A DNA stretch of 45,524 bases from a virus: IMG/VR virus record IMGVR_UViG_3300033064_006589, positions 1 through 45,524 of that record, one strand, 5' to 3'. Position numbers and translations under genes: made by a program. The notes under the pieces are model-generated. The model was not told the DNA's origin. It saw nothing but the letters and a program-made list of their open reading frames with translations, and ran no database searches. Each line of letters begins with the position of its first letter. Positions within the stretch are counted from its first letter, which is position 1. Shown one piece after another: positions 3,819-40,100 of the stretch.

Positions 3819-3943
3819 TGGGTAGTGGAGAAGTTTTTGATATCGAATGTCCTAAAATGACGATGATGGATCTTGCATCGATAAAAAAACGGTTAATGGC
3901 CAGAGCTTCCTGCAGTATCGAAATAAACGGTGGTGATCGATGA
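3818..3943 (+). CDS. 41-residue ORF coupled between dnaA and methylase
   Basis: The ORF starts in a TAATG overlap with the dnaA stop and ends in an ATGA overlap with the methylase start, so it fills the gap exactly. The product begins MGSGEVFDIECPKMTMMDLA and continues with a basic helix (SIKKRLMARAS). Such double overlap is hard to explain unless ribosomes pass through it, either to make a small protein or to couple the two flanking genes. There is no recognisable domain. Confidence 0.5.
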   Translation: MGSGEVFDIECPKMTMMDLASIKKRLMARASCSIEINGGDR

Positions 3944-4743
3944 ACGCCGGAAAAAGCGATGCGTCCGGAAGTTCGAGCTATTTTGGTGGGAAAGGCGGGG
4001 CTGGAACCTATCACACGATTATCAATTTAATGCCGCCACATAGCACGTATATAGAAACGCATTTAGGCGGCGGTGCAATTATGAAGCGAAAAAAGCCCGC
4101 CCCTGTGCTCAATATCGGCATAGACATTGATCCTGAAGTAACGGAATCGTTTAGATTGCCAGGCGTCGATGTCATAAATGACGATGCCGCCAGGTTCTTA
4201 AAAAATTACAGTTTTTGTGGTTATGAATTTGTTTATTCCGATCCGCCATATCTGGCTGGAACTCGCAAGAGCGCTACGCGATATAATTTCGAATATACGA
4301 CCGAGCAGCATATCGAGTTGCTTGAAATTTTAAAATCGCTTCCTTGCATGGTTATGGTTTCAGGTTATTATTCGGTGCTATACGCGGAGTCCCTTGCAGG
4401 TTGGAATTGCCATAGTTTTGAGTCTCAAACACGAAGGGGAAAAGCCGTTGAATGGCTGTGGTACAATTATAATCGGCCTACGGAATTGCATGATTATAGG
4501 TATCTGGGAAATAATTTCAGGGAGCGCGAGCGGATTAAGAGAAAACGGAAAAGGTGGATCGACCGTATTTCTAAAATGCCGATATTGGAAAGAAACGCCA
4601 TGTTTGAAGGGCTGCCGGGACCATCGCGAGAAATAACGATTCGATCAGGATCCCATCGCCGGAAATGTCGCGGGATGCCGGCCGTCATCGCTTTAAATAA
4701 AGAGCAAGGGAGTATGATTGATGGCGAAAGTCATAGAATTTGA
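3940..4743 (+). CDS. D12-class adenine-specific DNA methyltransferase (Dam-like)
   Basis: The 267-aa protein transfers a methyl group from S-adenosylmethionine to adenine N6 in DNA. Visible motifs are the N-terminal YFGGKGGAG (about 17-25), the SAM-binding IETHLGGGAI (about 41-50), an acidic GIDID strand, and the catalytic DPPY at D101-Y104 in VYSDPPYLAG. The order is that of the D12/Dam class (X-I-IV). The C-terminal third, with basic helix RERERIKRKRKRWIDRI, is long and may contact DNA. Target specificity cannot be read directly; GATC would fit a DnaA neighbour. The ATG sits in an ATGA overlap with the 41-residue ORF. It could protect phage DNA from restriction or time replication. Confidence 0.9.
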   Translation: MNAGKSDASGSSSYFGGKGGAGTYHTIINLMPPHSTYIETHLGGGAIMKRKKPAPVLNIGIDIDPEVTESFRLPGVDVINDDAARFLKNYSFCGYEFVYSDPPYLAGTRKSATRYNFEYTTEQHIELLEILKSLPCMVMVSGYYSVLYAESLAGWNCHSFESQTRRGKAVEWLWYNYNRPTELHDYRYLGNNFRERERIKRKRKRWIDRISKMPILERNAMFEGLPGPSREITIRSGSHRRKCRGMPAVIALNKEQGSMIDGESHRI

Positions 4744-4813
4744 AAGCAGAAAGAGCGAGCTGCGGGAAAGAATTGACGAGATCCTTGTAAACGAGGAATT
4801 GATAAAGGAATGA
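4721..4813 (+). CDS. 30-residue ORF continuing in frame after a TGA to 4930
   Basis: An ATG at 4721, about 12 bases after AAGGGAG, opens a 30-codon ORF (MAKVIEFESRKSELRERIDE...). It ends at TGA 4811-4813. The same frame stays open after the TGA to TAA at 4928-4930 and reads like a real protein end (containing RKTFTADLLVWGKVIDICFG). The full unit would be 69 codons with an internal TGA. Either a point mutation has broken a small gene, the TGA is read through, or there is a sequencing error. No start codon of ATG or GTG type lies in the second half. Function is unknown. Confidence 0.4.
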   Translation: MAKVIEFESRKSELRERIDEILVNEELIKE

Positions 4814-4957
4814 ACAGGAGAAGAAGTCAAGCGATATCCCCGGAAGACATTTACTGCTGACTTATTGGTTTGGGGAAAAGTCATCGATATATGCTTTGGG
4901 GCTGATTACTTATATGCAGAAAAAGATTAATGAGTTCATTGCCGGAATTGATGATGT

Positions 4958-7648
4958 ATGACTACTGCTACTCAGCCGGAACACGTATACAGACTGTTTT
5001 TTCATCCGGGCGAAGTCGTCGAGATCCGGGTGGCCGGGCTCAAGGGCGAACGCAAGGGCGTATGGGAAGGCCGTGCTTGGGGAGCCGACGCCTGGGTCTT
5101 CGGATATTTTGACAATGAAACAGATTTTGCCGAGGCGGTACGCAAGCTGGATACGGCCGGTGCCGCTTTTGTTTATTTTACCCCCAACCCCCCCCGTCCC
5201 GAGTTAATCCACCGAGTGCGCAACCGTCTGGTGGTTGCGGACAAAAAACGCACCTTAACCAGTAACCATGAGGTCAGGTGCATCCGCTGGCTGCTGATCG
5301 ATCTGGACCCGTCCAAGGCTGTGCGGCCTGCCGGGATATCTTCCTCCGACGAAGAGCTGGAAGCCGTGGCCGAGTTAGGGAAAGAGATCAAAACGTGGTT
5401 GGGCGATGATCTGGATTTTCCGGACCCCATCGGCGGAATGAGCGGTAATGGGTATCATCTTGTCTATCGGCTCCCAGACCTGCCGAACGAAGTCCCCAGA
5501 GGGCAAAAAAGATCCGAAGCGAGCATGCTCGTTAAAGGGGCGCTGGAAGCACTGGCGCACAGGTTTCAGGACCCGCGCGTGGATGTGGACCAGACAGTTC
5601 ATAATGCGGCGCGGATATGGAAGCTGTACGGGACCGTGGCCCGGAAGGGCGAATCGAGTGAGGAAAGACCGCACCGGAGATCGTATCTTTTTTCGTCTGC
5701 GCCCGAATCGCTGGAGCAGGTGGAAGTTGTATCGAGAAAACAGCTCAAAAGATTGGTGTCCATGGCTCCGGAGGACTCCTCCCGGCCCGCGCCCTCCGCG
5801 TCCTCCTATCCGGTAAAGACCAGCAAGCCGGGCAAGAAAGGCAAAACCCGGCGATATAAGCATGATTTAGGAGACTTGGACGTACCGGCATGGCTGTCGG
5901 CATACGGGAGGGCGGTGCACAGTGTTGAACAGGACGGTAGCGCTACCAGGTTTATCCTGGAGGAATGTGTTTTCGATTCGAGTCACAAAGCCAAGGATGC
6001 CTGTATTGTGCAGGTGCCCAATGAGCCGCTGCGGTATCATTGCTTTCACAATTCGTGCGAGGGGCTGTATTTTAAGGACGCCCGCCGGGTTATCTCGGGA
6101 GAGGACTCGCTCAAGCCGTTTATGACCGGCTACGATCCCAGTCAGGACCGACCTAAAGAAACGCAATATGCCGGGAAAGGTGAGTTGGCGTGTATCAATA
6201 TTGAGGGTATCAATACTGATTTGACGGACCCGTTGGAAAGCCTCTCCGGCCTATCGGCCCCGGGCGACATCGACCCGGCCGAGTTTTTCACGATGAGCTA
6301 CACCAACCGTCCGCGATTTACAGTGAAATTAATGGCAAACTACCTGGCCGCGTATTTAGGTCCCATATGCTGCACATCCGGGCAGTTCTGGCGGTATTCC
6401 GGAGGGGTTTGGAAACAATTCTCGACCGGAAAATTATCTCAGATGATAGTGTGCGCTTTGAAGGAAAAAATACAGCCGGAATGGATTAACGGATCAATCA
6501 AGGTGCTGGAAGGATTGGTCAACCGCGAAGAGAAGGAATGGCCGCAATATCCGCACCTCATTAACGTAAAAAACGGCATGGTGGATCTGTCCGGTATAAC
6601 GGTCAACATTGAAGATGCGGCGGATCTGGACCTGGAGGCGTTACTCAAGCCCCATGATCCTAAATACGGATCGAGGGTGCAACTTGATGTTGAGTATGAT
6701 CTGGATGCGACCAATGATATCTGGTATCAGACCCTGAATGAGATATTCCCGGATGGTCGTCCGGTGGAAGCCGGTAGAACGTGCCTGGGGGATGAAAAAA
6801 TTAAGATGCTGAAACAGTTCGGCGGCTATGTTTTACTGAATACGACAAAATACGAAAAATGTCTTGTTTGCTACGGAGCCGGGGCCAATGGTAAAGGTAC
6901 CGTAATGGATGCGTTCGCCTTTGTGATCGGCGAAGAAAACGCGACCGAATTGTCGATAGAGGATCTGGGAAAGAGCTTTAATTTGCCATATCTGCAAACC
7001 AAAATGATGGTCACCTGCGCGGAGCTGCCCCAAAAAGACAGTGGCGGAGGCGTGCAGAAATTAAAACAGTGTATCTCCGGAGATATGATGAGCGGTGAAC
7101 TGAAATTCGGCAAACGCGTGGATTTCAGGAATAAGGCCAAATTTATTTTCAGTATGAATTTGCCGCCGACGATAAGCGATAAGTCCTATGGGTTCTATCG
7201 CAAAATTCTTGTGCTGAATTTTAACCGGCGGTTTGAAGATCATGAATTTGACAGGGACCGGCGCGAGAAAATACGCGAGCATAAAAACGGCGTTTTTTTG
7301 TGGATGCTGGACGGGGCCGTTGATTTGATTAGATCCAAGGGTTTTACCGAAACCGAAGGGACGGTAAGAGAAAAGAACCTGTTTTTTAAAGCTATCAATC
7401 CGATGTTGCTGTATGTCGAGGAGCAGTGTCGTGTCGATAAGGATGATGAGCAGTTGTATGTTCCTAAAACCGAGCTGCATGAAGACTACCAGCAATGGTG
7501 TAAAAAAACGTTGCATAAACCGTTGGGCCGGACTAACTTTTATTTGCAGATAGAGACTCATTGCAGGCTTAAAGAGGCCCGCCGGGAAGTGGATCGCGGC
7601 GGTATTACCAGCACTCCGCGATGTTATGTGGGGATTGGGTTGATTTGA
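4958..7648 (+). CDS. Primase-helicase: PrimPol-like domain fused to D5-family ATPase
   Basis: The 896-aa protein would prime and unwind phage DNA at the fork. The N-terminal part is of archaeo-eukaryotic primase type: metal motif LLIDLDP (about 111-117), MSGNGYHLVYRL (M161 onward, with H167) and NAARIWKLYGT (N216 onward). A Cys/His-rich stretch follows at about 335-375 (RYHCFHNSCEG), probably a zinc-stabilised PriCT-like region. The C-terminal half has the D5 N-domain (GPICCTSGQFWRYSGGVW) and a superfamily-3 type ATPase with Walker A GAGANGKGT (about 639-647), sensor/Walker motifs MMVTCAELPQ and AKFIFSMNLPP. This is the phage/plasmid P4-family layout. The start is ATG 4958, overlapping a stop in another frame (ATGA). 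Confidence 0.9.
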   Translation: MTTATQPEHVYRLFFHPGEVVEIRVAGLKGERKGVWEGRAWGADAWVFGYFDNETDFAEAVRKLDTAGAAFVYFTPNPPRPELIHRVRNRLVVADKKRTLTSNHEVRCIRWLLIDLDPSKAVRPAGISSSDEELEAVAELGKEIKTWLGDDLDFPDPIGGMSGNGYHLVYRLPDLPNEVPRGQKRSEASMLVKGALEALAHRFQDPRVDVDQTVHNAARIWKLYGTVARKGESSEERPHRRSYLFSSAPESLEQVEVVSRKQLKRLVSMAPEDSSRPAPSASSYPVKTSKPGKKGKTRRYKHDLGDLDVPAWLSAYGRAVHSVEQDGSATRFILEECVFDSSHKAKDACIVQVPNEPLRYHCFHNSCEGLYFKDARRVISGEDSLKPFMTGYDPSQDRPKETQYAGKGELACINIEGINTDLTDPLESLSGLSAPGDIDPAEFFTMSYTNRPRFTVKLMANYLAAYLGPICCTSGQFWRYSGGVWKQFSTGKLSQMIVCALKEKIQPEWINGSIKVLEGLVNREEKEWPQYPHLINVKNGMVDLSGITVNIEDAADLDLEALLKPHDPKYGSRVQLDVEYDLDATNDIWYQTLNEIFPDGRPVEAGRTCLGDEKIKMLKQFGGYVLLNTTKYEKCLVCYGAGANGKGTVMDAFAFVIGEENATELSIEDLGKSFNLPYLQTKMMVTCAELPQKDSGGGVQKLKQCISGDMMSGELKFGKRVDFRNKAKFIFSMNLPPTISDKSYGFYRKILVLNFNRRFEDHEFDRDRREKIREHKNGVFLWMLDGAVDLIRSKGFTETEGTVREKNLFFKAINPMLLYVEEQCRVDKDDEQLYVPKTELHEDYQQWCKKTLHKPLGRTNFYLQIETHCRLKEARREVDRGGITSTPRCYVGIGLI

Positions 7649-7649
7649 G

Positions 7650-7808
7650 ATGGATATGAGTGATCGAGGATCATTTGTTACCGAGTATGTCTACTATGTT
7701 AGGTGTTTTGACGCCGCGAAACCGGAAAAACATCTTTGCTCAACAACGATCCCGTTGTATGTGGCGGGAAGCGCTGGGCGATTGTTGGAGATCCTGATCA
7801 AATGGTAA
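7650..7808 (+). CDS. Small hypothetical protein, 52 aa
   Basis: ATG 7650 begins two bases after the primase stop. The product starts MDMSDRGSFVTEYVYYVRCF and contains KHLCSTTIP, a pattern I associate with longer phage-borne proteins that have a FVTEYIYC head and a LCSTxIP motif. Those proteins usually run further, so this copy may be shortened or frameshifted near 7760-7800. There is no catalytic motif. It overlaps the next ORF by a few bases. Confidence 0.45.
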   Translation: MDMSDRGSFVTEYVYYVRCFDAAKPEKHLCSTTIPLYVAGSAGRLLEILIKW

Positions 7809-8047
7809 GGATGGAGATTATGGAAACAGATAATAACGATTTTATATTTTTAGATGGTGAGGAACTAAAGGGTCTATATCTATACAAGGTCGATTTGGAA
7901 AAGGCGGTTGATTTGGTTTGTACGGGGTGTGGAAGAGAATCAGGGTTTGTACCTACTATGGAATATAGGGGTGATTTAACCAATATTGCCGAAAAATGCA
8001 GTGAATGTGGCGGCAGGGTCGTGATTGATGAAAAAACGGCTCCCTGA
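7802..8047 (+). CDS. Zinc-ribbon protein, about 81 aa
   Basis: Start candidates are ATG 7802, 7811 and 7820; 7802 overlaps the previous stop. The frame is also open further upstream to a TTG at 7736, but that part duplicates coding sequence of the preceding ORF in another frame. The C-terminal half has two Cys pairs, CTGCG and CSECGG, about 30 residues apart, giving a four-cysteine zinc ribbon. The N-terminal half is acidic (METDNNDFIFLDGEELKGLY). Such small ribbons in phages often bind nucleic acid or RNA polymerase, but nothing here identifies the partner. It is the last gene of the rightward early block. Confidence 0.6.
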   Translation: MVRMEIMETDNNDFIFLDGEELKGLYLYKVDLEKAVDLVCTGCGRESGFVPTMEYRGDLTNIAEKCSECGGRVVIDEKTAP

Positions 8048-8063
8048 AATGCCCATATTCGAG

Positions 8064-8303
8064 CGATCTCAGCGAGCCGAAGGGTTAAGGCCGTACAAGT
8101 AATCAGGTAGTTTTGCTGGTCTACCCGGTTTCCTTTCTTTGACAAGATCAAGATCCTTTTTGCAGATAATCCAATCCCGACCGACTTTTGTTGCGGGGAG
8201 TCGTCCGGCCTCGATCAAGGCCCGTCAAATCGACTCGCAGAGACGCCCTGTATTGGACGATCTCAGCGATACGAAGGGTTAAGGTCGCACCTGATATCAG
8301 GTA
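8064..8303. repeat. Imperfect direct repeat, about 46 bp, two copies
   Basis: Copy 1 is at about 8064-8109 and copy 2 at about 8258-8303. Both begin CGATCTCAGCGA, share CGAAGGGTTAAGG and end TCAGGTA; about eight positions differ. They bracket the intact part of the helix-turn-helix remnant. On the minus strand both copies encode LTLR(L/I)AEI in one frame, so they look like duplicated 5' ends of the same small gene. Confidence 0.65.
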
Positions 8304-8321
8304 TTTACGGAGTTTCAGCTT
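8069..8321 (-). pseudogene. Frame-broken helix-turn-helix (excisionase/MerR-like) remnant
   Basis: On the minus strand, 8224 down to the stop at 8069-8071 encodes 51 residues starting RALIEAGRLPATKVGRDWII, then a basic KERKPGRPAK section. This is the second half of a HTH_17/excisionase-type domain (recognition helix plus GRLPAxKVGRDW wing). The first half (TLTLRIAEIVQYRASLRVDL) lies immediately upstream but in a different frame (8226 to about 8321), with an in-frame TGA at 8225-8227 separating them. No start codon with a ribosome site is evident. Intact relatives act as DNA-bending excisionases or small regulators. Here the gene appears dead, possibly a relic of a lysogeny module. Confidence 0.6.
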
Positions 8322-8397
8322 TCAATATTACGTTTAGCTGGTCCGGCGCTTTCGCCTGGATTACGTTAACGCGGCTGCGTGGTGGCGGTTATCGAAG

Positions 8398-8421
8398 GAT
8401 TCGAGTTGATGATTTCGAATC
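8398..8421. repeat. Inverted repeat GATTCGA...TCGAATC
   Basis: Seven-base perfect arms at 8398-8404 and 8415-8421 with a 10-base loop lie in the non-coding stretch after the helix-turn-helix remnant. No T-run follows. It could be a protein-binding site. Confidence 0.4.
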
Positions 8422-8472
8422 AATATCGCAACCCCTCGTCAGGTGGTCTTAGTGAAAGATGGAAGGCAGGAA

Positions 8473-8491
8473 TCGTGAATTGCAATCACGA
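8473..8491. repeat. Inverted repeat TCGTGA-N7-TCACGA
   Basis: Six-base perfect arms surround ATTGCAA, itself nearly symmetrical. It lies 30 bases beyond the end of the minus-strand gene. There is no T-tract on either strand, so a terminator is doubtful. Confidence 0.4.
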
Positions 8492-8521
8492 GTTGCTGTT
8501 TGTGTGTGCCTATCCCCAAGG

Positions 8522-9079
8522 TCACTCTTCTGATATTTGGACCTGATTCCAGATACCCGCGTAGGATACTGTAAAAGTACCATCAACTGTCGCAGCATTT
8601 TCGGAATCTATGCGCACCGTCACGCGATAGGTTCCTGGTGGGAAATCCGTTCGATTGCCATTTGGTTTTTTGTGAGTGAAAAACCTTAAGACATCAGGGA
8701 TATCTTGAACTGCAACACACAGGTCTAACCGTCTTGGCAGATCTGTATCAATGTTCCTTGGGCCGAAATCTGGTTCGTGTGCCCATTTGAGAACAGCTGG
8801 ATTGACGAAATCTGGATGAGGCTGATACTCGTCGCCTGGTTCAAGGATGTTTACCTCAATGAGCCTGCCTTGACACGCCTCTGCCACATCATGGCCATCA
8901 TTGCAGACCATTAGGTGACAGAAGAAACCGGGTGTTCCTCCCATATCTGCTACCGTCCTTGTATGATAGGTTTCATTCGGGGCAAAGTAAATGCGTAAAA
9001 TCGGTCTTCTAGAATACTTGCAAACTTTCTCTATCCATTTTAAGGGATTCAGTAGTCCTAATATTTCGACAAGAGTCAT
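8522..9079 (-). CDS. Lone minus-strand hypothetical protein, 185 aa
   Basis: This is the only convincing minus-strand gene in the window. ATG at 9079-9077 is preceded by GAGGAAGGC, a strong ribosome site. The product has a short hydrophobic/basic N-terminus (VEILGLLNPLKWIEKVCKYS), followed by a beta-rich domain with GFFCHLMVCNDGHDVAEACQ, GRLIEVN..EPGDEYQPHPDF, LKWAHEPD, IDTDLPRRLDLCVAV and a final PPGTYRVTVRIDSENA strand pair. That pattern resembles beta-sandwich proteins of unknown function found in bacterial genomes rather than phage structural genes. Its opposite orientation, isolated position and host-like character fit a moron, a gene carried for the host's benefit. Function is unknown. 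Confidence 0.7.
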   Translation of the reverse strand: MTLVEILGLLNPLKWIEKVCKYSRRPILRIYFAPNETYHTRTVADMGGTPGFFCHLMVCNDGHDVAEACQGRLIEVNILEPGDEYQPHPDFVNPAVLKWAHEPDFGPRNIDTDLPRRLDLCVAVQDIPDVLRFFTHKKPNGNRTDFPPGTYRVTVRIDSENAATVDGTFTVSYAGIWNQVQISEE

Positions 9080-9182
9080 GCCTTCCTCTCGATTAGTGGT
9101 TATAAGCGGATAAACTATGGTTATACGTCATAAACAAATGGACAAACGCGCACATTTAAAGACACATAAGCTACGTATAGAG

Positions 9183-9266
9183 AATTCAAGATTCATTGCC
9201 TGCACCCTGATTTCCAAACATTAAAGATTTCTTGCCTCAATCTTATATTCACATACATTGAAGATT
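9183..9266. repeat. Three spaced copies of ATTNAAGATT
   Basis: Copies begin at 9183, 9219 and 9256, giving spacings of 36 and 37 bases. The first two are followed by TTGCCT in similar positions. The intervening DNA is not conserved. The copies are too short and too few for a CRISPR array; they may be binding sites upstream of the minus-strand gene. Confidence 0.35.
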
Positions 9267-9461
9267 CGGAACCAAAATCATGGATGTCATCTTTTAATTT
9301 GAACACAGATTATGTGTTATCTTTCTTTATGTCATATCCGTTAATATTTAAGATATCATAAATAGTGGTTATCAAGTCAAGTTAATCCCTTTTTTAGAGT
9401 TTTTTTCCCCGGCGCCCGCTCCCCTCCCGCTTTTTTCAAAAATTTAGAACAATTTGTAATA

Positions 9462-9500
9462 GACTACCGTATTTTTGGTAGATTCTACCAGTTGACTACC
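9462..9500. promoter_or_regulatory. GGTAG/CTACC cluster with palindrome TGGTAGATTCTACCA
   Basis: A perfect 6-bp-arm palindrome at 9476-9490 is flanked on both sides by GACTACC (9462-9468 and 9494-9500). Further GGTAG copies lie at about 9717-9745 next to the palindrome GTCGATCAATCGAC. The symmetry suggests a dimeric regulator or origin-binding protein site. Confidence 0.45.
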
Positions 9501-9878
9501 AGTTTAAGACCAGAGTTGAAAAAAATATATGTAATAATATCAAGGTCACTTACCGGTTTTACCATAGTTTCTTTCTTATTTATTGTATGCGAGGAAAAAG
9601 AAATAAAAGATAATAATATATATAAGGTTAAATCGCTCAACTTTGGTAATTTTGGTAAGATCCGCCAGGGCCGCGGGCGGCCTGGAAAAAAAATGGTTTA
9701 TAACTGGCTAAAAACCGGTAGTCGATCAATCGACTTTGGTAGAAGTCTATAACGCTTGAAAATGGTGATTGGGGTGGAAGGGATTGGATTTTTTTGGCGG
9801 TTTTGGAATTCCAGAGTCGATAAAGCCCCTCAGAGATGGTCTGGGGATTTTTGGAAATCCAAAGGGGGGAGGGGTGGC

Positions 9879-9941
9879 AAGTCGCAAATCCTTGACTGAC
9901 GCGACTTTACAAGGGTTGACATAACTAAATATGGATGTCAA
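9879..9941. promoter_or_regulatory. Two adjacent inverted repeats, AAGTCGC/GCGACTT and TTGACAT/ATGTCAA
   Basis: AAGTCGC (9879-9885) pairs with GCGACTT (9901-9907) across 15 bases. TTGACAT (9916-9922) pairs with ATGTCAA (9935-9941) across 12 bases. Both have perfect 7-bp arms. TTGACA is also a consensus -35 hexamer, but no good -10 follows at 16-18 bases. An operator pair overlapping a promoter is plausible. Confidence 0.45.
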
Positions 9942-10146
9942 GCGTAAAGGCGGTTTGAGTCGTTTTATTTTAAGTCTGGGGCATGCCGGGGCTGGATGAG
10001 ATGGTCGGGTTCGTTGTGTTGGCCGGTGCGGCCTGGCAGGAGATGTATAAGGTTGTATAGGGTTGGTCGGCAGCCGGGCACGTGCGATGATCGTTAGCGC
10101 CTGGGGCCTGGTCTCCAGGTTTGTACTAAATACTGTTATGATAAAC

Positions 10147-10164
10147 ACTGCTTAAATAAGCAGT
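10147..10164. promoter_or_regulatory. Perfect palindrome ACTGCTTA-AA-TAAGCAGT
   Basis: Two 8-bp arms with a 2-base centre form an almost ideal dimeric operator. It lies in the gene-free region, preceded by a second imperfect symmetry (CCTGG...CCAGG at about 10102-10120). No T-run follows. Confidence 0.5.
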
Positions 10165-10233
10165 ATAAAAAGAGCCTGGCGGCTTCTCAGATCGTGGCTG
10201 GTGGTTGGTCCGGGATGTTTAGGTCCGGTATAG

Positions 10234-10262
10234 TTGACAGGGGAATTATGTGTGATTATGGC
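10234..10262 (+). promoter_or_regulatory. Candidate sigma-70 promoter
   Basis: TTGACA at 10234-10239 is a perfect -35. With a 17-base spacer the -10 position reads TATGGC, matching only half of TATAAT. It points toward the late genes but lies about 860 bases before the first of them. Low certainty. Confidence 0.25.
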
Positions 10263-10950
10263 ATTTGCTCGCAATATCTTTGTAAAGCGTTGATTTTCGC
10301 GGGTTTGCGGATAGGGTAGATGGGCGGAATAACGATTAGAGAAGATTAGGCCGGGTTATCGGCTGTTATAGCTAAATATTGATTAGATGGCTTTGACGAA
10401 ATTTGGATTATTGAGACAGTTTATTTTATTTCGGATCTGGTGATATCGATTGATGTCGATCAAGATCGGCTGTTTTTATATCGATGTTGTCGGCTCAACG
10501 TCCGATAACGTACAGTGTGTAAACTTTTAACCGGTTTTCCGGGTGTCAATTTCGGCGGTTACAGCGGATTACCGGCAATTGCTTCTTCTACTATTTTTAT
10601 ATCATTTCCAGGTTTCCAGATCAATTCTTTTTCAATATTCTCGAAATCGGCAAATCCCGGAAACGGACTTTTTTATGTCCAGCCTTTTCAAGTGGGTTTC
10701 GTCTCCGGCCTCTCGGGGTGAAAATAGATTGGCCGGAGAGCGACTGCCCGGATCTCGGAAAACGGAAAATCGAAAACCGGGAGATCCGGGACTCCTCCCC
10801 CCCATCAACCCTGTTTGGTATGGGATTTTTCAAACTTTTTCGACCTTCGCTAAATTTTTGATCTTAAGTCGGGGTGCGGGGTTTTGTGGCCAGGGAGCGG
10901 GGCTAAAAAAACTTGTCAAGTACTTTTTTGGGTAAAAAAGGTAAACGTTA

Positions 10951-10990
10951 CATTAAATAGCGTTAAATAGCATTAAATAGCATAAAGATA
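10951..10990. repeat. 10-bp tandem repeat before the terminase genes
   Basis: CATTAAATAG, CGTTAAATAG and CATTAAATAG follow each other at 10951, 10961 and 10971; a fourth degenerate unit (CATAAAGATA) starts at 10981. The period of 10 puts each copy on the same face of the helix. The array lies 137 bases before the terminase small-subunit gene in a very AT-rich stretch. Candidate roles are a terminase recognition (pac) site, iterons or a DNA-unwinding element. Confidence 0.6.
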
Positions 10991-11126
10991 ATTTTATTTC
11001 TCCGCAAGCGGCATTTTTTTAAAAACCCGTGTTATATCTGTAACGGATTGTATTCACCTTTCTCTGTTGGGTGGATAGCCGATATTTGACGACTTTATCC
11101 GCTTCGAATGATTCGACGAGGATTTT

Positions 11127-11783
11127 ATGGCAAACACACAGTCCAAAATTGAAAAGCTGGGTTATGCCGAAACCGTCCAGGAGTTGATGAAGGGCGGCAT
11201 CACTGTCGCCAAGAAAATCGCCGAAATACTGCGCACCGAACACGGCGCGGATGTTTCGGATTCATCGGTTACCCGCTACGTCGCCAAAATCAAGCACACC
11301 ATCAAGGACGATGCTTTTAAAACCATCCGCGATCACGTTGATAAAGAGGTGCCCAAAGATCTGGATGCCCTGGAAGATATGGAACGGCAGTGTCTTGATT
11401 GGGCCTTCGAAGATCCCAAGGAACTGGCCGAGCGTTTGACAGATGCTATATCGCTGGTCGATGGAGAGCTTGATAAATGGATATTACTACTTGAGAACCC
11501 GATTGGAGAAGAAAAAAACCGGAGAGTCGTTGTTAAACAGATCGTGCGCATGGCGCTGGACTATGTGCTTAAAGACGCCCGTATGCAGGCCAAGCGAATT
11601 CAGGCCATGAACACGGCGATAAAAATTATCGACTTAAAGTTGCGGCAGGCCGGCCTGCTTGACGATGATACCAAAGGCCGGATTATTATTTTTGACAGCA
11701 GTAAAGATTATGATGAGTCGAAGCACGGCGATCAGGCCGGTAGTTTTATGCCTTATGTTGTAAAAACATCACGGCAAGAATAA
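11127..11783 (+). CDS. Probable terminase small subunit
   Basis: The 218-aa protein lies immediately before the large terminase. Residues about 15-55 (ELMKGGITVAKKIAEILRTEHG, then DSSVTRYVAKIK) form a helix-turn-helix suited to recognising the packaging site. The remainder is helical and charged, with a long central helix pair (LDALEDMERQCLDWAF; QIVRMALDYVLKDARMQAKRI) for oligomerisation. The tail is short and polar. In tailed phages the small subunit binds pac or cos and hands DNA to the large subunit. Assignment rests on gene position, size and the helix-turn-helix, not on a specific family signature. GAGG at about 11117 serves as ribosome site. Confidence 0.7.
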   Translation: MANTQSKIEKLGYAETVQELMKGGITVAKKIAEILRTEHGADVSDSSVTRYVAKIKHTIKDDAFKTIRDHVDKEVPKDLDALEDMERQCLDWAFEDPKELAERLTDAISLVDGELDKWILLLENPIGEEKNRRVVVKQIVRMALDYVLKDARMQAKRIQAMNTAIKIIDLKLRQAGLLDDDTKGRIIIFDSSKDYDESKHGDQAGSFMPYVVKTSRQE

Positions 11784-11803
11784 CAAAACAGGAATGTTTA
11801 GAA

Positions 11804-13246
11804 ATGTCGGATTTGTTATTTGATCTTTCACCCACTGTGAGCGCATTTGTGCATACCGATGCGAATATTGTGATTCTCCGCGGGCCGAAAGGTGAGGGTA
11901 AGACATACGGGGGGGTCGCCGCTCTTATTCGCCATGCCGAACGCTGTCAAAAAGATATTTACGGCGCTCTGATTCGAGATACCCACCAAAACATCAAAAT
12001 GTCAACGGCTCGTGACATTCAGGACGTATTGGGCTCTTATGGTACGTTCAAAGATGATTGCAAGCAGTTGATCATTCATTCTAAACCCAAAGTTCATATG
12101 TACTTATTCGGCATTGACGATCCGGCGGCGCTTTCCAAGCTGCAAGCGTTTCAGTGCTCGATAATATGGCTGGAAGAGCCAGCTCCGATTAAAGAGGCAG
12201 CAAATGCCGGCCTTCCTCGGGATGTGTATAATCATTCCATTGTGCAGGCGGCGCGGCAGCAAGGGACGATATTGCGAGTACAAATCACTCAAAACCCTGC
12301 GGATGAAGATCACTGGACCGAAGAGGTAGCTAATGAGCCGGAGGTTGTCATTGAAGATCCCGAGACCGGTTTAAAAATAATAAAGAAAGTTTTTAATATT
12401 CCGTACGGAGAAAACAAATATTTAAAACCCATGTCCCGGTTAGCGACCAGGGCTGCTTTTAAGGAAGGCACCGGCGAACATACCAGGTATGTTAAAGGTA
12501 AAGCTGCTCCGCTGCAAAAGGGCAAAAAAGTTCTACCGGAATATGGCGATATGCATTACGCAAACAGAGAGCTGCCGGTTATACCCGGAGCCGTGGGTGT
12601 GCGGTTTTATGACGCCTGGCATCATCCGACCTGCATCATCGGTCAATTGGTTCCCCCTGGAAAACTCTGGGTTCATCAAGCATTCAGTGGTGAAGGCATG
12701 GGTATGCGCGAGTTGATTACCGAGCAGGTTAAGCCCGCTCTGTCTTCTCCCAAATATAAAGATAAAATTCATGACTGGCGCGATATCGGCGATCCTTCCA
12801 TGAAAACCCCCGATCAAAGTACGATAACAATGTCTACCGCTAAGGTAGTAGAAGATTTGTTAAATACAAGATTCGAGCCGGGGCCGACCCGATGGAAAGC
12901 CAGAATACAACCCACCAAAACGGCATTAAGTCGTTTGGCCACGGATGGTGAAATAAAAATTTTAGTGTCTTCTACCGCCTATAAACTGCATCGGTCTTTG
13001 AACGGCGGCTGGCACTGGAAAACAGATAACTCAGGAAATATTATAGGGACGCTGCCGGTGCAAAATGACAATTTTGCGCATTTGGGAAATGCTTTTGCGT
13101 ATGGTGTATCGATTGTATTTCCGTATGAATATGAAGATCAGAAAAAGGGCAAGAAAAAGAACCAGAATAATAAGTTCGGGCGTGCGATGAGTTATGCTCC
13201 GAGCAGTACGTCTGTGTACAGCAATGTTCCGCCTCCGATGATATGA
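11804..13246 (+). CDS. terL: Terminase large subunit (packaging ATPase-nuclease)
   Basis: The 480-aa motor translocates DNA into the prohead and cuts it. The N-terminal ATPase has Walker A GPKGEGKT (27-34), preceded by a NIVILR strand, and Walker B CSIIWLEEP with catalytic Glu124/Glu125. TQNPADEDHW resembles the coupling motif. The C-terminal RNase-H-like nuclease begins at GVRFYDAW (Asp270), with a second acidic cluster at DIGDPSM. The N-terminus lacks the adenine-binding extension seen in longer TerL proteins, and the C-terminus is a polar Lys/Asn/Ser tail. Together with portal and capsid type this fits podovirus terminases. The stop overlaps the next gene (ATGA). Confidence 0.9.
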   Translation: MSDLLFDLSPTVSAFVHTDANIVILRGPKGEGKTYGGVAALIRHAERCQKDIYGALIRDTHQNIKMSTARDIQDVLGSYGTFKDDCKQLIIHSKPKVHMYLFGIDDPAALSKLQAFQCSIIWLEEPAPIKEAANAGLPRDVYNHSIVQAARQQGTILRVQITQNPADEDHWTEEVANEPEVVIEDPETGLKIIKKVFNIPYGENKYLKPMSRLATRAAFKEGTGEHTRYVKGKAAPLQKGKKVLPEYGDMHYANRELPVIPGAVGVRFYDAWHHPTCIIGQLVPPGKLWVHQAFSGEGMGMRELITEQVKPALSSPKYKDKIHDWRDIGDPSMKTPDQSTITMSTAKVVEDLLNTRFEPGPTRWKARIQPTKTALSRLATDGEIKILVSSTAYKLHRSLNGGWHWKTDNSGNIIGTLPVQNDNFAHLGNAFAYGVSIVFPYEYEDQKKGKKKNQNNKFGRAMSYAPSSTSVYSNVPPPMI

Positions 13247-13428
13247 ATATGAATGAAAAAATAAATATAATCGAATTTGGAAAATCTATTTTTGTGGATG
13301 AAGTGGATGAAATTCCAAAAGAAGTTTTTGAAAAACTAAAAGAATTTGAAAGGCGTAAAGATAGATTTGCCAGGTGTATTTTTTCGGTGCCAGAAGGAGA
13401 GTTAGTAAATTATGACCGGTTTTTATAA
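13243..13428 (+). CDS. Small acidic hypothetical protein, 61 aa
   Basis: The start codon overlaps the TerL stop (ATGA). The product is acidic and helical: DEVDEIPKEVFEKLKEFERR. It overlaps the following gene by 17 bases. No domain is recognisable. The tight packing between terminase and portal supports expression. Confidence 0.6.
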   Translation: MNMNEKINIIEFGKSIFVDEVDEIPKEVFEKLKEFERRKDRFARCIFSVPEGELVNYDRFL

Positions 13429-13666
13429 CAGATACTGGGAAATGAGGCAGGGCGGGCCGCATGATAAGGGTGATGATATTTTTAAGTGTACGGACTGCGG
13501 GGGCGAGACACACCCGGTGATGGGTCACAACGGCGAGCCGAATCCCGGAAATTGTTTCAAACACTGCAAGTCGCGGGAAACCCAAAAGCGGCCTGTTAGT
13601 GTAAAGCAGTTTTTTAATCAGGAACACGACCGCATTTTTCCGAATGCGCCAGGCGCGGGGATGTAG
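13412..13666 (+). CDS. Small Cys-rich (zinc-binding) protein, 84 aa
   Basis: The product has CTDCGG, then about 20 residues later NCFKHCKS, a four-cysteine pattern typical of a treble-clef or ribbon zinc site. Two histidines lie between them. The N-terminal segment (FYNRYWEMRQGGPHDKGDD) is aromatic and polar. It lies between terminase and portal, where small head-assembly or packaging helpers are common. The function is unknown; the zinc site is inferred from cysteine spacing. Confidence 0.65.
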   Translation: MTGFYNRYWEMRQGGPHDKGDDIFKCTDCGGETHPVMGHNGEPNPGNCFKHCKSRETQKRPVSVKQFFNQEHDRIFPNAPGAGM

Positions 13667-13669
13667 CGT

Positions 13670-15571
13670 ATGCCAGTACAAATGGGCGGCAATCTGGATG
13701 AATTGAAAGACCGGCACAGGGAAATTGTCGTTAGAGACAATTCCATGGACCCGCAGGAGCTTGAGGAGCGCAAGGAGGCGGCCCGGCGTTACGCCATGGA
13801 GGACGAGCAGCATTTTGTGGATTATCTGAACGATTGCGTCGATAAATCTGTGGAAGATAAAAAAGAAATACGAAAAGTGCAGGAAGAATGCTGGAAGGTG
13901 TTTAACGAAAAAGAGCCGGCTTCTTTTAAAAATAAGGCCCCGTGGCAGTCCCGCATTATCGTGCCGAGGCCGTTCGAGTCGGTGCAGTACGGTGCCGCGG
14001 CCATTAAAAAAGCTTTCTCTCCGGATTATCTGTCCGTGCAAAACCCCAAGGATAAAACAGCGGCGGAGTTCTGGAAAATGGTGTTAGATGACCAAAACGG
14101 TAAGATGAAGGGTAATTTCGTTCTCAAGTTTTCGGACGCTAATCTTATGGGTCTGGCAATCGGCGAAAGCCACGAAATTATCCCGCGTTTTGTACCCGGC
14201 CGGGGCTTGGAATACACGCTGGCCGAGCCGTGGAAGATCCATCGCGACCCGGATGCGCCGTCCCGCGATCCGCAGGGGGGGATGTACTGGATTCATCAAG
14301 AATGGATCGACTGGTACGTGCTGTTAGAGGGGCAGAGGAACGGCAAATATGTTGCCGTGGAGCGGGCCAAGGATACGTCGGGCACAAGTATTAACAATCC
14401 GTTTATGACCAAGGAGGCGATAGCGGCCCGTAAAAAGCAAATCTGGAAGCGTTCCAAATTCAGAACTATGGTGCTGGTTTCGGAATTTTGGGGCGTCGTA
14501 TTGGACAAAAAGGGCGAACTTCTGCTTCCCAGTGCAAATTATACCGTGGCCGGCAACCGGGTCATCGAGGAGCCCAAGCCGCTGCCGTACCGTTCTCTGC
14601 GTTGGCCGGGAGTATCTTTCTCGCCCCTGCCAAACATTTTGGCGTTCGGCGGCAGGGGGTTGGTCGAAGGGGTTACCACCATATGGGAGTCGATGTGCAA
14701 TTTGATGTGTTTGCATGACGATTCTCTAAAATGGGTGGTCGATCCTCCCATAGAAGTGGAGCAAGACCGGCTGATTGATAAAGACGATGTGGAAGATTGG
14801 CCCGGAAAAAAATATCTGGTGCGCGAGAGCGTGCACGGAAACCCGGCAATACGTGCGGTCAGCCGGCGGGATGTGTCCAACTCGGTGATGGGCAATATGC
14901 AGTACCGGGATCAGTTGTATCAGCGCGGGAGTTTTGTGACCGATGGCGTTCAGGGATTGCCCGGCTATCGCAAGGATATGACCTGGCGCGAGAGTTCCCA
15001 GCAGTTGGATCAGGCTATGGGCGTGTTCGGCCTTATGGGTGCCAATATCGAATTAGGGGCCGTGCATGTGCAGCACGCGGCCCAGGAGGTGATCGAGGCG
15101 TTTGCCGGTTATGCCGATTACGCCCGGATGTTCTCGGAGGGAGACGGCGAATTGATGCTGCAACAACTTGGCATACGGCCATCGCTGTATGCCGCCAACG
15201 GTATTGAAGGGCTGCCGTCGATGTCGGGTGTTTTCTCTGTATCCGGGATTCAGGCATTGATGAAGGACGCCGAAACGCTGATGAATCTAAGAAGCGTGGT
15301 GATTCCGCTGGCCGAAAAATCCCGCTTTGCGGAGTACATCCTGCCCTATGGCGTAATTAAGGCGCTGGAATCGCGGATCAACCTTACCGATGAGGGTGTT
15401 TTTGTTGATGAGGATACGGCCAATGAAATCCGGGAAAAAGAAAAAGCCCGGATGCTGAAAGCGGAGCAAGGCGAACATGACGCCCGCGATATGGCGCTAT
15501 ACCAAGCGGTGTTAGCGCTAACCCAGAGACAACCGCCGCCGGCAGGTGCTGAAGGAGAAGTGCCGCAATGA
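13670..15571 (+). CDS. Portal protein (podovirus type)
   Basis: The 633-aa product lies between terminase and scaffold/capsid. It opens with a charged helical segment. A region with WQSRIIVPRPFESVQ, YTLAEPWKIHRDPDAPS and GRGLVEGVTTIWESMCNLM follows; the last reads as the conserved portal wing/stem helix region. PPIEVEQDRL and WRESSQQLDQAMGVFGLMG continue the pattern. The protein should form the dodecameric ring that admits DNA and anchors the tail. The C-terminal 50 residues are acidic and helical (EIREKEKARMLKAEQ), as expected of a barrel or crown. Family assignment is by gene order, length and these segments. Confidence 0.8.
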   Translation: MPVQMGGNLDELKDRHREIVVRDNSMDPQELEERKEAARRYAMEDEQHFVDYLNDCVDKSVEDKKEIRKVQEECWKVFNEKEPASFKNKAPWQSRIIVPRPFESVQYGAAAIKKAFSPDYLSVQNPKDKTAAEFWKMVLDDQNGKMKGNFVLKFSDANLMGLAIGESHEIIPRFVPGRGLEYTLAEPWKIHRDPDAPSRDPQGGMYWIHQEWIDWYVLLEGQRNGKYVAVERAKDTSGTSINNPFMTKEAIAARKKQIWKRSKFRTMVLVSEFWGVVLDKKGELLLPSANYTVAGNRVIEEPKPLPYRSLRWPGVSFSPLPNILAFGGRGLVEGVTTIWESMCNLMCLHDDSLKWVVDPPIEVEQDRLIDKDDVEDWPGKKYLVRESVHGNPAIRAVSRRDVSNSVMGNMQYRDQLYQRGSFVTDGVQGLPGYRKDMTWRESSQQLDQAMGVFGLMGANIELGAVHVQHAAQEVIEAFAGYADYARMFSEGDGELMLQQLGIRPSLYAANGIEGLPSMSGVFSVSGIQALMKDAETLMNLRSVVIPLAEKSRFAEYILPYGVIKALESRINLTDEGVFVDEDTANEIREKEKARMLKAEQGEHDARDMALYQAVLALTQRQPPPAGAEGEVPQ

Positions 15572-34100: not shown

Positions 34101-37100
34101 GCTGGTGTCGGGTAAAACCGAAACAATCTCTTTGCCGGAGCCGCTTACGGCTAAAGATAAAGCCAAAGAAACCGCCGATCATCTAAAAAATGCCTTTAAC
34201 GCATTTAAGGATATTAACAAAATCCTTGGCGAAGAAGGGGCGGTCGGAGAGCTTGACCCGAAGAAGTGGGAGCAAATCAGGCCGCTATTAAAGCTGGCAT
34301 GGGATGAAGTTTTAGCGGCCGGAAAATCAGGCAAAGAATTTGTTGCATTAGCCCTAAAGAATCTACGATCTGAGGGCCGCCCGTACTTTGAAAAGTTTGT
34401 CCGCGAGGAAGTTGGAAAGGAGGGGCAAGATGAACGAACAAATACCGGCACCAATGTTCTGGATGAGGGCGAGGCTGATCTGGCTGCTGGCAAACGAACC
34501 GCAGGAGGTCAAAAGTCTGTATCAGAAAAGCCCGAACGTACTGCGCAAGAGGTTGCAGGAAAAAGCCCAACAAGCGGTATTGAAGCGCCGGAAACTGATG
34601 CAGGAAGGGGATCTGGCCGAGGACCAGATAGACGAGATAGTGCTGAACATGGTGGCCCCGAGCGAGGGAGTACCGTCCGAGCCGCTGCCGGAAGCGCAGG
34701 AACTGAAGATCAGGGACTGGTTGGAGAGTCAGAATTAGCTCCTGAAGACCGTAGCCATGTAATTGAAGAAGATGATGTAATAGTCCCCAAAGGCCCGGAG
34801 TCCAGAATCCAGGCCAATATCAAAGCCATACAGCTTTTAAAGAAGCTCCAAACCGAAGACCGCAATCCTACCCCTGATGAAAAGAAAATCCTGGCCCAAT
34901 ATGTTGGCTGGGGTGCTTTTTCCCAAAAAGTTTTCAATAGAGAATTTACTGATTATTTAAAAAATTTTGCCGACTATCGTTCTCCTGAAAGCCACTTTTA
35001 CAATGATAGCGGCAAAAAATATCTTGCCTGGAAAAAGAAATACGGTACCAGGCTGCATCCGGCCCTCGGCGGTCTTTTATCCGATGAGGAATGGAAGAGC
35101 GCCGAAGAATCAACAATCAATGCCCACTATACGTCCAGATCCGTTATTAAGTCCATGTGGGCCATGGCCGAGCGGTTAGGTTTTAAGGGCGGCACCGTAC
35201 TTGAACCAGGGGCCGGAGTCGGTCACTTCTTCGGACTAATGCCACAAGGTCTTGCTGAGAATTCTTCATTGTTTGGTGTTGAACTGGACACCATCACCGG
35301 TGGAATTCTTGAAAAACTGTATCCGCAGGCCCATATTCAAACTACAGCCTTTGAAAAATCAAAGGGCATAGCTGACAACTCCATCGATCTGACGATTACC
35401 AATGTTCCCTTTGCCAATTACCGGGTAATAGATAAAAAACATCCTGATTATTCCGGGTGGTCGCTGCACAACTATTTCTTTGGCCGATCCCTCAGCTTAA
35501 CCAAGCCGGGCGGTTTGGTTGTCGCCATTACCTCGTCATGGACCATGGATGCCAAGTCAAACGGCAAGGTGCGCGAATACTTAGCAAGCAAGGCTGATCT
35601 TGTGGGCGCTATCCGGCTTCCGAATACCGCCTTTGCTGAAAATGCCGGCACCGAAGTTGTTACCGATATTTTAATATTTCGAAAGAAGGATTCCGGCAAT
35701 GTATCGGCCGGTAATGATTTTAGGGTAACGCACAGGCTGGAAACCAAACAAAGCAAGCAGATTGTGGAAAAGCTCGATGCCGCCCGAAAGCGTTATGCCA
35801 AACTTAACGTTATGCCCAAAGGCCGGAAACGGACCAAGGCCGAAAAAGAGACATTGGCCGCGGCAAGGGTAGAGGTCGATAACCTTCTCGGAGAGCTTCA
35901 GGGCCTTTACGGTGTTAACGAATACTTTATTCAAAACCCGGAAATGGTTCTGGGCGAACATTCTATGAAGGGCACCATGTATGCCGGTGATTCATACACG
36001 GTAACTCCAACCGGCAATCTTGAAGAACAAATACAAGAGATTGTTCAGAGGCTTCCCGAAAATATAGCAGGCGAAGGCACTGACATATCTAAAATCAAGC
36101 CGGTATTATACGCTGATTTGGATTCTAAAGAAGGTACGCTGACTCAAAAAGACGGAAAGATTTATCTGGTTGATAACGGCCGCATGGTCGAACCTTTCTA
36201 TCTCGATACAAAAGGCAAAAAGCAGAAGGTTGCCGGCGTAAGACTCAAACGCTTAAAGTCATACCTGGAACTGCGAGATCTTACAACCAACCTGTTTGAA
36301 GTGATGGCTGATGTAGATACAACAGACGATGATATAACGTATCTACAAGACAAGCTTAACAAAAAATATGACGCCTATGTTAAAAAATATAATCATTTCG
36401 GTCACACTTCAAACTCTTATATCAGAAAAGTCGATAATGATTTTGCTGTTGTCGACGCCCTTGAAATTGAGACCAAAGACGGTCCGGAAGATTTTGTTAA
36501 AGCGCCGATATTTAACACCCGAACCATCTTCCCGTTTGTAGAGCCTACCACAGCGGAAAGCATCGAGGATGCCGCCAACCTGTCTATTATTTACAGGGGG
36601 AGCATTCAGCCGGCTTATATTGCATCCCTGACCGGGACAGAAAATATCGATCAGGTTAAAAGCGATCTTATCAAAAAGGGTTTGGCATTTATCGATCCCA
36701 CAACAGGATTAATGGAAGCAAAAGACCTGTACCTTTCCGGGAATGTAAAGAAAAAGCTGAAAGCCGCGAAAATTGCCGTTGAAGAAAATCCCGAATATAA
36801 ACACAACATAAAGGCTTTAGAGGCAGTTGTCCCGGAAGATATGGATATTGCTTTTATTGAGTTTAGATTAGGATCTTCCTGGATACCGACTGATGTTGTT
36901 CAAGGTTTTTTAAAAGAAGTTTTAGAGGTTAATGCAAAGGTTGAGTATGCAAAAACAGATGTTAGCTCCCGTTGGTTGGTTTCTCGGGAGGGGTATGGCA
37001 ACTGGGATAATGTAAAAAACAGAGAGACATACGGGACCGAGGATAATTACGGGACTTCATTGATCGAGGCTGCGCTGAACCTAAAGCGGATTACGATCAA

Positions 37101-40100
37101 GAAAAAAATGAGAAACGAGGCCGGTAATGAGGTCACGTATGAAGACAAGGACGCCTCAAAAGAAAATAACCTGAAAATTCAGGAAATCAATACCGAATTT
37201 GTCACCTGGGCCAAAACCCATGAGAAGTGGGCCCCGAAGCTGGCAGAGGTATATAACGAAGAAAAGAACGGTCATGTTCTTCGCAAACACTCAGCTCCTG
37301 TATTCAAGGATGCCGAAGGCAATAAAACCCTTCATTATCCAAACGCTTCAACCGCAATTACTCTAAGAGAGCATCAGAGAATTGCAGTTTCAAGGGCGCT
37401 GCAGGAGTCTGTTCTTCTGGCCTATGGCGTGGGTACCGGGAAAACGTACATTTTTATCACCGCAGCTATGGAAATGCGACGAATCGGAACCGCCAGAAAA
37501 CCGATTATCGTGGTCCACAATCAAACCATCGATCAATACCGTCAATCATTTAAAGTTCTTTATCCGGGTGCCAAGGTCCTTATCCCGAATTATCACCAAC
37601 GTTCAAGCCGTATGCGCAAGAAAACGCTTGTGAGCATGGCCACAGGCGATTGGGATGCTATTGTTCTGCCGCAGTCATTCTTTGACGGAATTGCGAATGA
37701 TCCTGCCAGAGAAACCGCATTTGTGGAAGAACAGCTTGATATGATCGATGAACAGATTTCAGATGCGGAGTCCGAAGACGGCAAAAACTCCTTGACAGTT
37801 AAAGAGCTGGTAAAACTAAAAAAACAAAAACGCCAGAAACTTGAGGCGTTGCTGGATCGACGTAAGGATGAAGCGGTTATCTTCGAACAGATGGGAGTCG
37901 ATGCGTTGCTGATTGATGAAGTCCATGCATATAAGCGCAGCGAATTCTATACCAAAATGAACAAGGTGAAAGGGATTGACAGCGGATCATCCCAAAGAAG
38001 CACCAGTCTTATTCTAAAGAGTGAATTTGTCCGGGAGAAAACCGGGGGGAAAAACGTTATTACGGCAACGGGTACGCCGATTTCAAACACCATGGCCGAG
38101 CTTTGGACTATGCTGAGATATGTCCGCCCGGACCTGCTGGAAGAATACGGCGTTACGCTGTTTGATGATTTTGCAGGGGCTTTTGGTAATGTGGTTGAAG
38201 GTACAGAAGAAACAGCCTCCGGATACAAACTGGTTGATCGTTTTGCCGAGTATGTCAACGGGCCTGAACTGCTGACCATGTTTTACTCCGGGGCTGATGT
38301 GAGGTTGACCAAAGACGCCAACTTGAACTTGCCAAAAATGAAGGGTGGCAAACCTCATGTTGTTGTATCTGAAAAGAGCCCGGAACTAACGCGGTACATT
38401 AAGGACATTATCAGGCAATGGAAAGCCTGGGAGAATCTTACCGGGCGTGAAAAAATGAAGAACCGCCATGTTCCCCTGGTGCTTTATGGCAGAGCTAAAA
38501 AAGCGGCGATTGATTTAAGGTTAATTGATCCTGATTATTACAAAGACGATCAGAACAGCAAAATAAGCAAGGCGGCTGAAAACATATACAAAGTATGGAA
38601 AGAAACAGCGAGAAATAAAAGCACTCAAATTGCATTTCTGGACGTATTCAGGGACCGGGCCAAGAACGAAAGGTTTAACGGCCAGAAGGATCTTAAAGAA
38701 AAACTGATGGCCACGGGTGTTCCGTCTAAAGAAATCGCTATATTTTCGGATGCAGGCACCAGCGAGACCAAGCAGTCCCGGATGAAAGAGAGCATCCGTA
38801 ATGGTGATATTCGGGTTGTTATCGGGTCAACGGCAAAGTTGGGCATAGGGGTTGATATAGCTGATAAGATGATAGGTGCTCATCATATCAATGTACCGGA
38901 CAGGCCCATGGATATCGAGCAAAGAGACGGCCGGATTATTCGCCAAACCAACGAGAACGAGGAAGTGGAGATATACCACTATTGCACAAAAGAAACCTTG
39001 GACTCGGTGATGTTTGGGCGTTTGATGAAAAAACAGCGATACGCGGATCAAGTGCTTACCGGTGATGTTGAGGGTAGAACGTTCAAAGATCCGTATAGTG
39101 TAGAACAGGCCTCTTTTGCGGAGTTTGCCGCAGCTTCTTCCGGAAAGGCCGGAAAGCTTCTTTTTGAGAAAAATGAGCTTTTAGCAGCCGAAAATAAGTA
39201 CAAGGTTGCCCAGACCGCACACATCCGGCGCGTATCCAACGCGAGAAAAAATGTTAATCAAATCCCCAATGAGATTAATGCGCTCGAAGATTCTCTTTCA
39301 GAAGAAAACAAGCTGAAAAAGCATGTTGAAGATACCTTTGAAGGTGTGAAGTTGGGCACGGTGACGTTTGACGGCGAAACCATGGATCGGACGGATGCGG
39401 TCAAAAAGATCGAGGAGCGAGTCAGGGCCATAGCGGATGGGTGGAAAAAACAGCTTGAAGGCATGGCCTTCGGAGATTACCAGAAGCTTGTAGAAAGCCA
39501 GGCCGGAAAGTATCCGGGGAGTTTTTTTCATGACGAAGTGCGGGAGACTGTTCGAGCCAAGGCAGGCGGGATTGACATAAAAACAATCCTATCTGCAAAC
39601 ACAAACTGGAAACGAGGCGAAAAACCATCCCAAAAAATTAAGTTTAATAAAGAATGGGGTGGCGAGGAAGAACAGGTTCTTAGGCGGATTCGAGTTGCAT
39701 ATTTTTACAACGGGAAAAACCTTGATCGAGCAAATATAGATCCAGATACGCTTGGTCACAACTTTACCCGTAAATTTAACGACATGCTGAGGGTGGTTGC
39801 CGCAAGGCCGGGCATAACCCAAAAAAGTATTGATAAGTCAAAAAATGATTTGGCTGAATTTAAAAATATTTCCAAGGAAGCCTTTAAATATAAGCAAGAA
39901 TTGTCGCACGCTCAGAAACGAATTGCCGATATTGACAGAGAGCTGGTTAATCTTTCGAATGAAGAAACTGAAGGAATGCCGATCACTGCACAGGAAACGA
40001 CAAAGGAGATAGAGAAAGAAGCCGAAGTCGCCGAAGACAAACCTCAAGAGGAAATAGAGAAAAAAGATAGGGCCGCCAGTGTCTCCGGGTCAGTTCAGTA

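Follow-up and report, generated by a model that had tools for sequence, protein, structure and literature searches.

Small phage genes that lie wholly inside a larger gene, in its +1 frame and with their own Shine-Dalgarno (SD) sequence, are known from Rz/Rz1 and other embedded genes. The locus described here has the same layout, with a nested gene contained wholly within a giant gene, in the +1 frame and behind its own SD. It differs from Rz/Rz1 in that it has no link to lysis, free-standing homologs of the nested gene exist, and the host frame across it is a predicted disordered linker. The giant belongs to the DarB-like polyvalent proteins (Iyer 2017, PMC5512222), whose description makes no mention of TnpV, overlap or frameshift in its main text, and a literature search found no report describing the nested gene or the overlap. 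The nested protein family resembles TnpV, which is present in transposons and ICEs and which in Tn4451 has been postulated to be Xis-like (PMC3158075; PMC9815147); no established function for TnpV was found in the literature. Known TnpV genes are free-standing in these elements, whereas the nested copies are embedded out of frame. We consider it highly probable that the locus carries a real and ancient same-strand overlapping gene, internally initiated and encoding an all-helical TnpV-like protein of ~12 kDa, over which the giant frame reads a linker.

A nested gene within a giant DarB-like gene

The window, meaning the whole analysed stretch of 45,524 nucleotides (IMG/VR record IMGVR_UViG_3300033064_006589), contains a giant gene of 12,918 bp, the largest of the phage (Table 1). 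Its product matches phrog_10089 (DarB-like antirestriction; E=0, 1339.9 bits) and the Pfam families ResIII (2.2e-06), SNF2-related (6e-05) and Eco57I methylase (0.0017). The order LPD36-methylase-SNF2 is present, with LPD36 assigned solely by this order and the text of PMC5512222. In Burkholderia phage JC1, the giant protein is virion-borne, as documented by 51 peptides (PMC9144972).

A reading of this DNA from sequence only had reported a 102-codon open reading frame (ORF) out of frame inside the giant with a GGAGG-N6-ATG start. Sequence and translation confirm this ORF, which ends in a stop codon, lies in the +1 frame relative to the giant, and is preceded by the spacer GGCAAG. The stop-free stretch of the nested frame begins at 34358, and an alternative TTG is located at 34388. 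The product had been described as globular in composition and the giant frame as low in complexity, which is borne out by hydrophobic residue contents of 33% and 9%, respectively; 84% of the giant-frame residues across the ORF are disorder-promoting. The motif RPYFEKFVREE, taken earlier for a domain end, indeed closes a helical domain in the AlphaFold model of a giant-frame fragment, directly before the nested ORF. Over the nested gene, between this well-modelled domain and the next modelled helices, the giant frame is predicted to be disordered and to act as a linker.

Table 1 Features of the nested gene and of the giant gene that encloses it (window coordinates)
Feature	Position	Strand	Evidence
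Giant DarB-like polyvalent protein, MTase + SWI2/SNF2 helicase, 4305 aa	31117..44034	+	phrog_10089, Pfam
Giant's helical domain, closed by ..RPYFEKFVREE where the nested gene starts	34150..34434	+	AlphaFold helices to fragment residue 102; 58-66% identity to L004, L005, L007
SD sequence GGAGG preceding the nested ATG by 6 nt	34419..34423	+	sequence
Nested gene, +1 frame, 102-aa all-helical TnpV-like protein (predicted)	34430..34738	+	homologs, substitution pattern, predicted model
Giant-frame linker over the nested gene, predicted disordered	34432..34743	+	pLDDT <50, nearly all fragment residues 102-205
Start of the conserved LPD36/N6-adenine methylase region of the giant	34780..35604	+	tblastn to DarB-like phages; Eco57I methylase match to residue 1496
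SWI2/SNF2-type helicase module of the giant	37357..38943	+	Pfam ResIII/SNF2/Helicase_C, residues 2081-2609

The nested protein of the window was modelled as five helices (mean pLDDT 91.7, pTM 0.81). Because the underlying alignment combines main-family sequences with the copy of the window, which is divergent, this model supports, but does not prove, common ancestry. PDB sequence and fold searches yielded no relative and no matching solved fold.

Distribution of the nested gene among phages

Using the upstream helical domain as query, we recovered the relatives L004, L005/L006, and L007 at the identities given in Table 1; one further contig (L002) is identical to the window and adds no information. 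All of these relatives have an open +1 ORF of 92-119 aa that starts right after RPYFEKFVREE. The nested protein of L007 in turn matched Klebsiella phages LASTA, SJM3, and SopranoGao, Erwinia phage Stean, and Sinorhizobium phage PBC5, and the LASTA copy extended these matches to PEp14, Pavtok, Itty13, VvAW1, Atu_ph08, POI1126, and Mwe-JY07. Wherever the giant is annotated as a single gene, the matches fall in its +1 frame, and a small gene at the nested position is annotated in none of the database records examined. In the deposited record of Pseudomonas phage Itty13 (L021), opposite-strand ORFs are annotated over the giant (2905-14163), while the giant itself is unannotated. No match was obtained by tblastn against phages with the window's nested protein or its upstream domain, nor by a plasmid search with the LASTA nested protein, and an NCBIfam search gave nothing useful.

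To census the gene, viral and genome contigs were scanned with an alignment of ten nested proteins (A4), which identified 108 loci with nested-protein relatives. At 102 of these loci, the nested ORF is enclosed by an open frame >1000 aa, to which it is always +1. These embedded loci comprise 84 distinct sequences, which form 46 clusters at 70% identity; both counts allow for duplicates, since some loci are one phage in two collections. They span phages of Klebsiella, Erwinia, Pseudomonas, Vibrio, Agrobacterium, Ochrobactrum, and Microcystis, as well as viral contigs and prophages. In the DarB-type giants examined, the nested ORF is positioned directly before the methylase domain. Occurrence at the same place and in the same frame, unannotated, in many other phages indicates that the hidden gene is very probably real and widely overlooked. 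The trait extends far beyond the phage of the window: in many phages, cultured ones among them, the largest gene harbours a protein that is deeply conserved yet unannotated. This shows that whole families are lost from view when gene callers disallow long overlaps.

Five of the six loci that are not embedded carry a free-standing gene without a giant (in Corticibacter, Pseudidiomarina, Variovorax, and the metagenome bins, or MAGs, of a Hyphomicrobiales and a Marinimicrobia member), and the remaining one (L034) is degraded. The Pseudidiomarina homolog (L110, 5974-6762) is 262 aa in all and has a C-terminal extension that is apparently membrane-spanning.

Ten more DarB-type loci, chosen independently of the nested-protein search and without a BLAST match to the nested protein, contain a +1 ORF at 33-186 nt upstream of the methylase match (Burkholderia JC1 and DC1, Pseudomonas 8P and USP_25, Pseudoalteromonas Y7, a Listeria phage contig, a faecal contig, and the rumen-type L009, L010, and L012). 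In the three rumen-type loci, a 71-aa +1 ORF at the nested position (5699-5911) is unlike TnpV in sequence and is possibly another embedded gene. Among the DarB/SNF2 genes inspected, the +1 ORF is absent at P1, a Streptococcus SNF2 gene, and some faecal contigs. Since several of these genes lack the ORF, the nested gene is not essential to the module.

Relationship to TnpV

Profile comparisons indicate that the nested family is TnpV-like. The copy on the Listeria phage contig (L122) scores 29.3 bits against a cut-off of 27 for TnpV (PF14198) and covers 2-110 of 111 positions, and the copies of L007 (23.2) and L095 (26.7) score below the cut-off. In a set of 14 nested proteins, eight match TnpV, all below the cut-off. 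Comparison of the TnpV-like set (A7) with the main phage family (A9) by hhalign gave 96.8%. The likeness consists of size, the all-helical pattern, and a C-terminal AEEI motif in those nested members that match TnpV.

The nested protein of the window has no Pfam match, with none to TnpV at E<=10, and a TnpV profile search of genomes returned no match in the window and, in control genomes, none above the cut-off; it is therefore not filed as a TnpV member. Together with L004, as a profile of two sequences only, it reached hhalign values of 0.7% against the TnpV-like set and 0.2% against the main family. Its pairwise scores gave a top z of 5.6 versus a reversed-control maximum of 2.7. The link of the window copy to the family draws on position, frame, fold, the L004 and L007 intermediates, and weak pairwise scores.

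Possible functions of the nested protein

The fixed position of the nested gene makes a role with the methylase-helicase module plausible, and the protein may tentatively be viewed as a small partner or regulator of the antirestriction module. This would make it a new candidate component of DarB-type antirestriction. The free-standing copies lie elsewhere and do not adjoin methylase-helicase genes, so that an independent role is about equally open. The overlap would then be real but a frozen accident, and the protein an independent Xis-like protein of mobile elements, consistent with the presence of TnpV in transposons and ICEs and its postulated role there (PMC3158075; PMC9815147). This alternative, which concerns function only, has to be reconciled with the constant location of the gene immediately upstream of the methylase module in DarB loci from many lineages, and we give it a little less than an even chance. 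A broader proposal is likewise a serious possibility, if not yet a probable one: DarB-like antirestriction loci in phages of different bacterial phyla may generally include the embedded gene as a component, the giant's linker being the younger frame, created by read-through of a pre-existing gene, and the TnpV-like product may work with the methylase-helicase in the control, packaging or inhibition of host restriction.

Signals for internal initiation

An SD core (GGAG, GAGG or AGGA) precedes 73 of the 84 distinct nested starts, compared with 10.4% of 6214 control +1-phase ATGs (P=1.7e-37 on pairing energy), mostly at a distance of 6-8 nt from the start codon. This enrichment and spacing favour internal initiation over frameshifting. 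The nested protein would be translated from its own SD within the giant mRNA, while ribosomes on the giant would pass through these bases in the other frame and produce a disordered linker between the upstream helical domain and the LPD36-methylase-helicase module. A programmed +1 frameshift, in which ribosomes slip from the giant into the nested frame and produce an N-terminal half ending in the TnpV-like domain, would account for the frame being always +1 and for PBC5, where the N-terminal half of the giant is in frame with the nested domain. However, the start codon is conserved with an SD at initiation spacing, an in-frame stop occurs within 10 codons upstream at 18 of 67 starts, and the PBC5 case is explained by a single-base indel that its relatives lack, which makes frameshifting very improbable.

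In PBC5 (L014), this indel, at ~7911-7930, splits the giant gene. Because it lies just upstream and is absent from relatives, the fusion looks like a sequencing or strain frameshift, which phrog_938 appears to inherit and BFVD probably does too. Matches to the phrog_938 'endolysin' were rejected, as they fall at the C-terminus of a 2185-aa profile that is probably PBC5 orf33, fused through the indel. The best viral fold-search match, Q8W6J4_2 (1093 aa), was also set aside, since it is probably half of PBC5 orf33, judging by its length.

Constraint on the two reading frames

In 16 disjoint pairs aligned as DNA, substitutions at giant codon positions 1/2/3 are distributed 55/23/22% over the ORF, against 15/10/75% downstream (P=2e-44) and 27/26/47% upstream. 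The switch coincides with the ORF ends, and giant codon position 1 is nested position 3. The substitution rate in these pairs is lower in the overlap (6.7%) than outside it (8.9 and 20.5%). Nested identity exceeds giant identity over the same bases in 370 of 371 pairs, of which the divergent ones were aligned on the nested frame, so that the unbiased evidence comes from the close pairs and the 16-pair test. Between the window and L004, its nearest usable relative, the values are 54/48/48, with the codon-position signal near saturation from divergence. The sequence-only reading had looked to a comparison of constraint between the frames across related phages, and this comparison goes in its favour: the nested frame is kept and is the more constrained of the two.

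Synonymous resampling of giant codons often keeps the nested frame open (20% of trials for the window, 52% on average), and openness of the ORF was therefore rejected as evidence by itself; what makes the overlap significant is its conservation, the pattern of substitutions, the signals at the starts, and the existence of free-standing homologs. Given the nested proteins, the median chance of a stop-free giant frame is 0.013 (0/300 for the window), so the giant frame too is kept open by selection. That the +1 frame is merely left open by a low-complexity Gly/Arg/Ala/Glu linker and yields no product would fit the resampling values but is scarcely credible against the free-standing homologs, the codon-position switch, the SD enrichment, the confident predicted fold, and the improbability of the stop-free giant frame, a constraint opposite to what a chance frame implies.

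Origin of the overlap

For the real overlapping gene, the most likely history is that the fusion of neighbouring frames enclosed a tnpV-like gene that had been free-standing. The arrangement would then be locked in, as the sequence of the small protein and the openness of the giant frame both have to be preserved. Engulfment after loss of a stop had been suggested from the sequence, and free-standing homologs fit this history; however, no unfused three-gene ancestor was found among the relatives, and we therefore infer the engulfment step. The homolog envisaged between two shorter proteins exists as a stand-alone gene, in five copies in bacterial genomes, but not in a three-gene arrangement. 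The giant's linker seems to have been born by reading over an older gene, the opposite of how overprinting usually proceeds.

One locus, L118 from a Fibrobacter MAG, has the ORF beneath the initial ~100 codons of a gene that runs on into a methylase/helicase protein and is unfused to the upstream gene, a possible evolutionary intermediate. Regions with an LYHGT (ADP-ribosyltransferase-like) motif occur on either side of the tnpV-like ORF in this bin (4993-5745 and 6231 onward), the second running on into the methylase-helicase protein.
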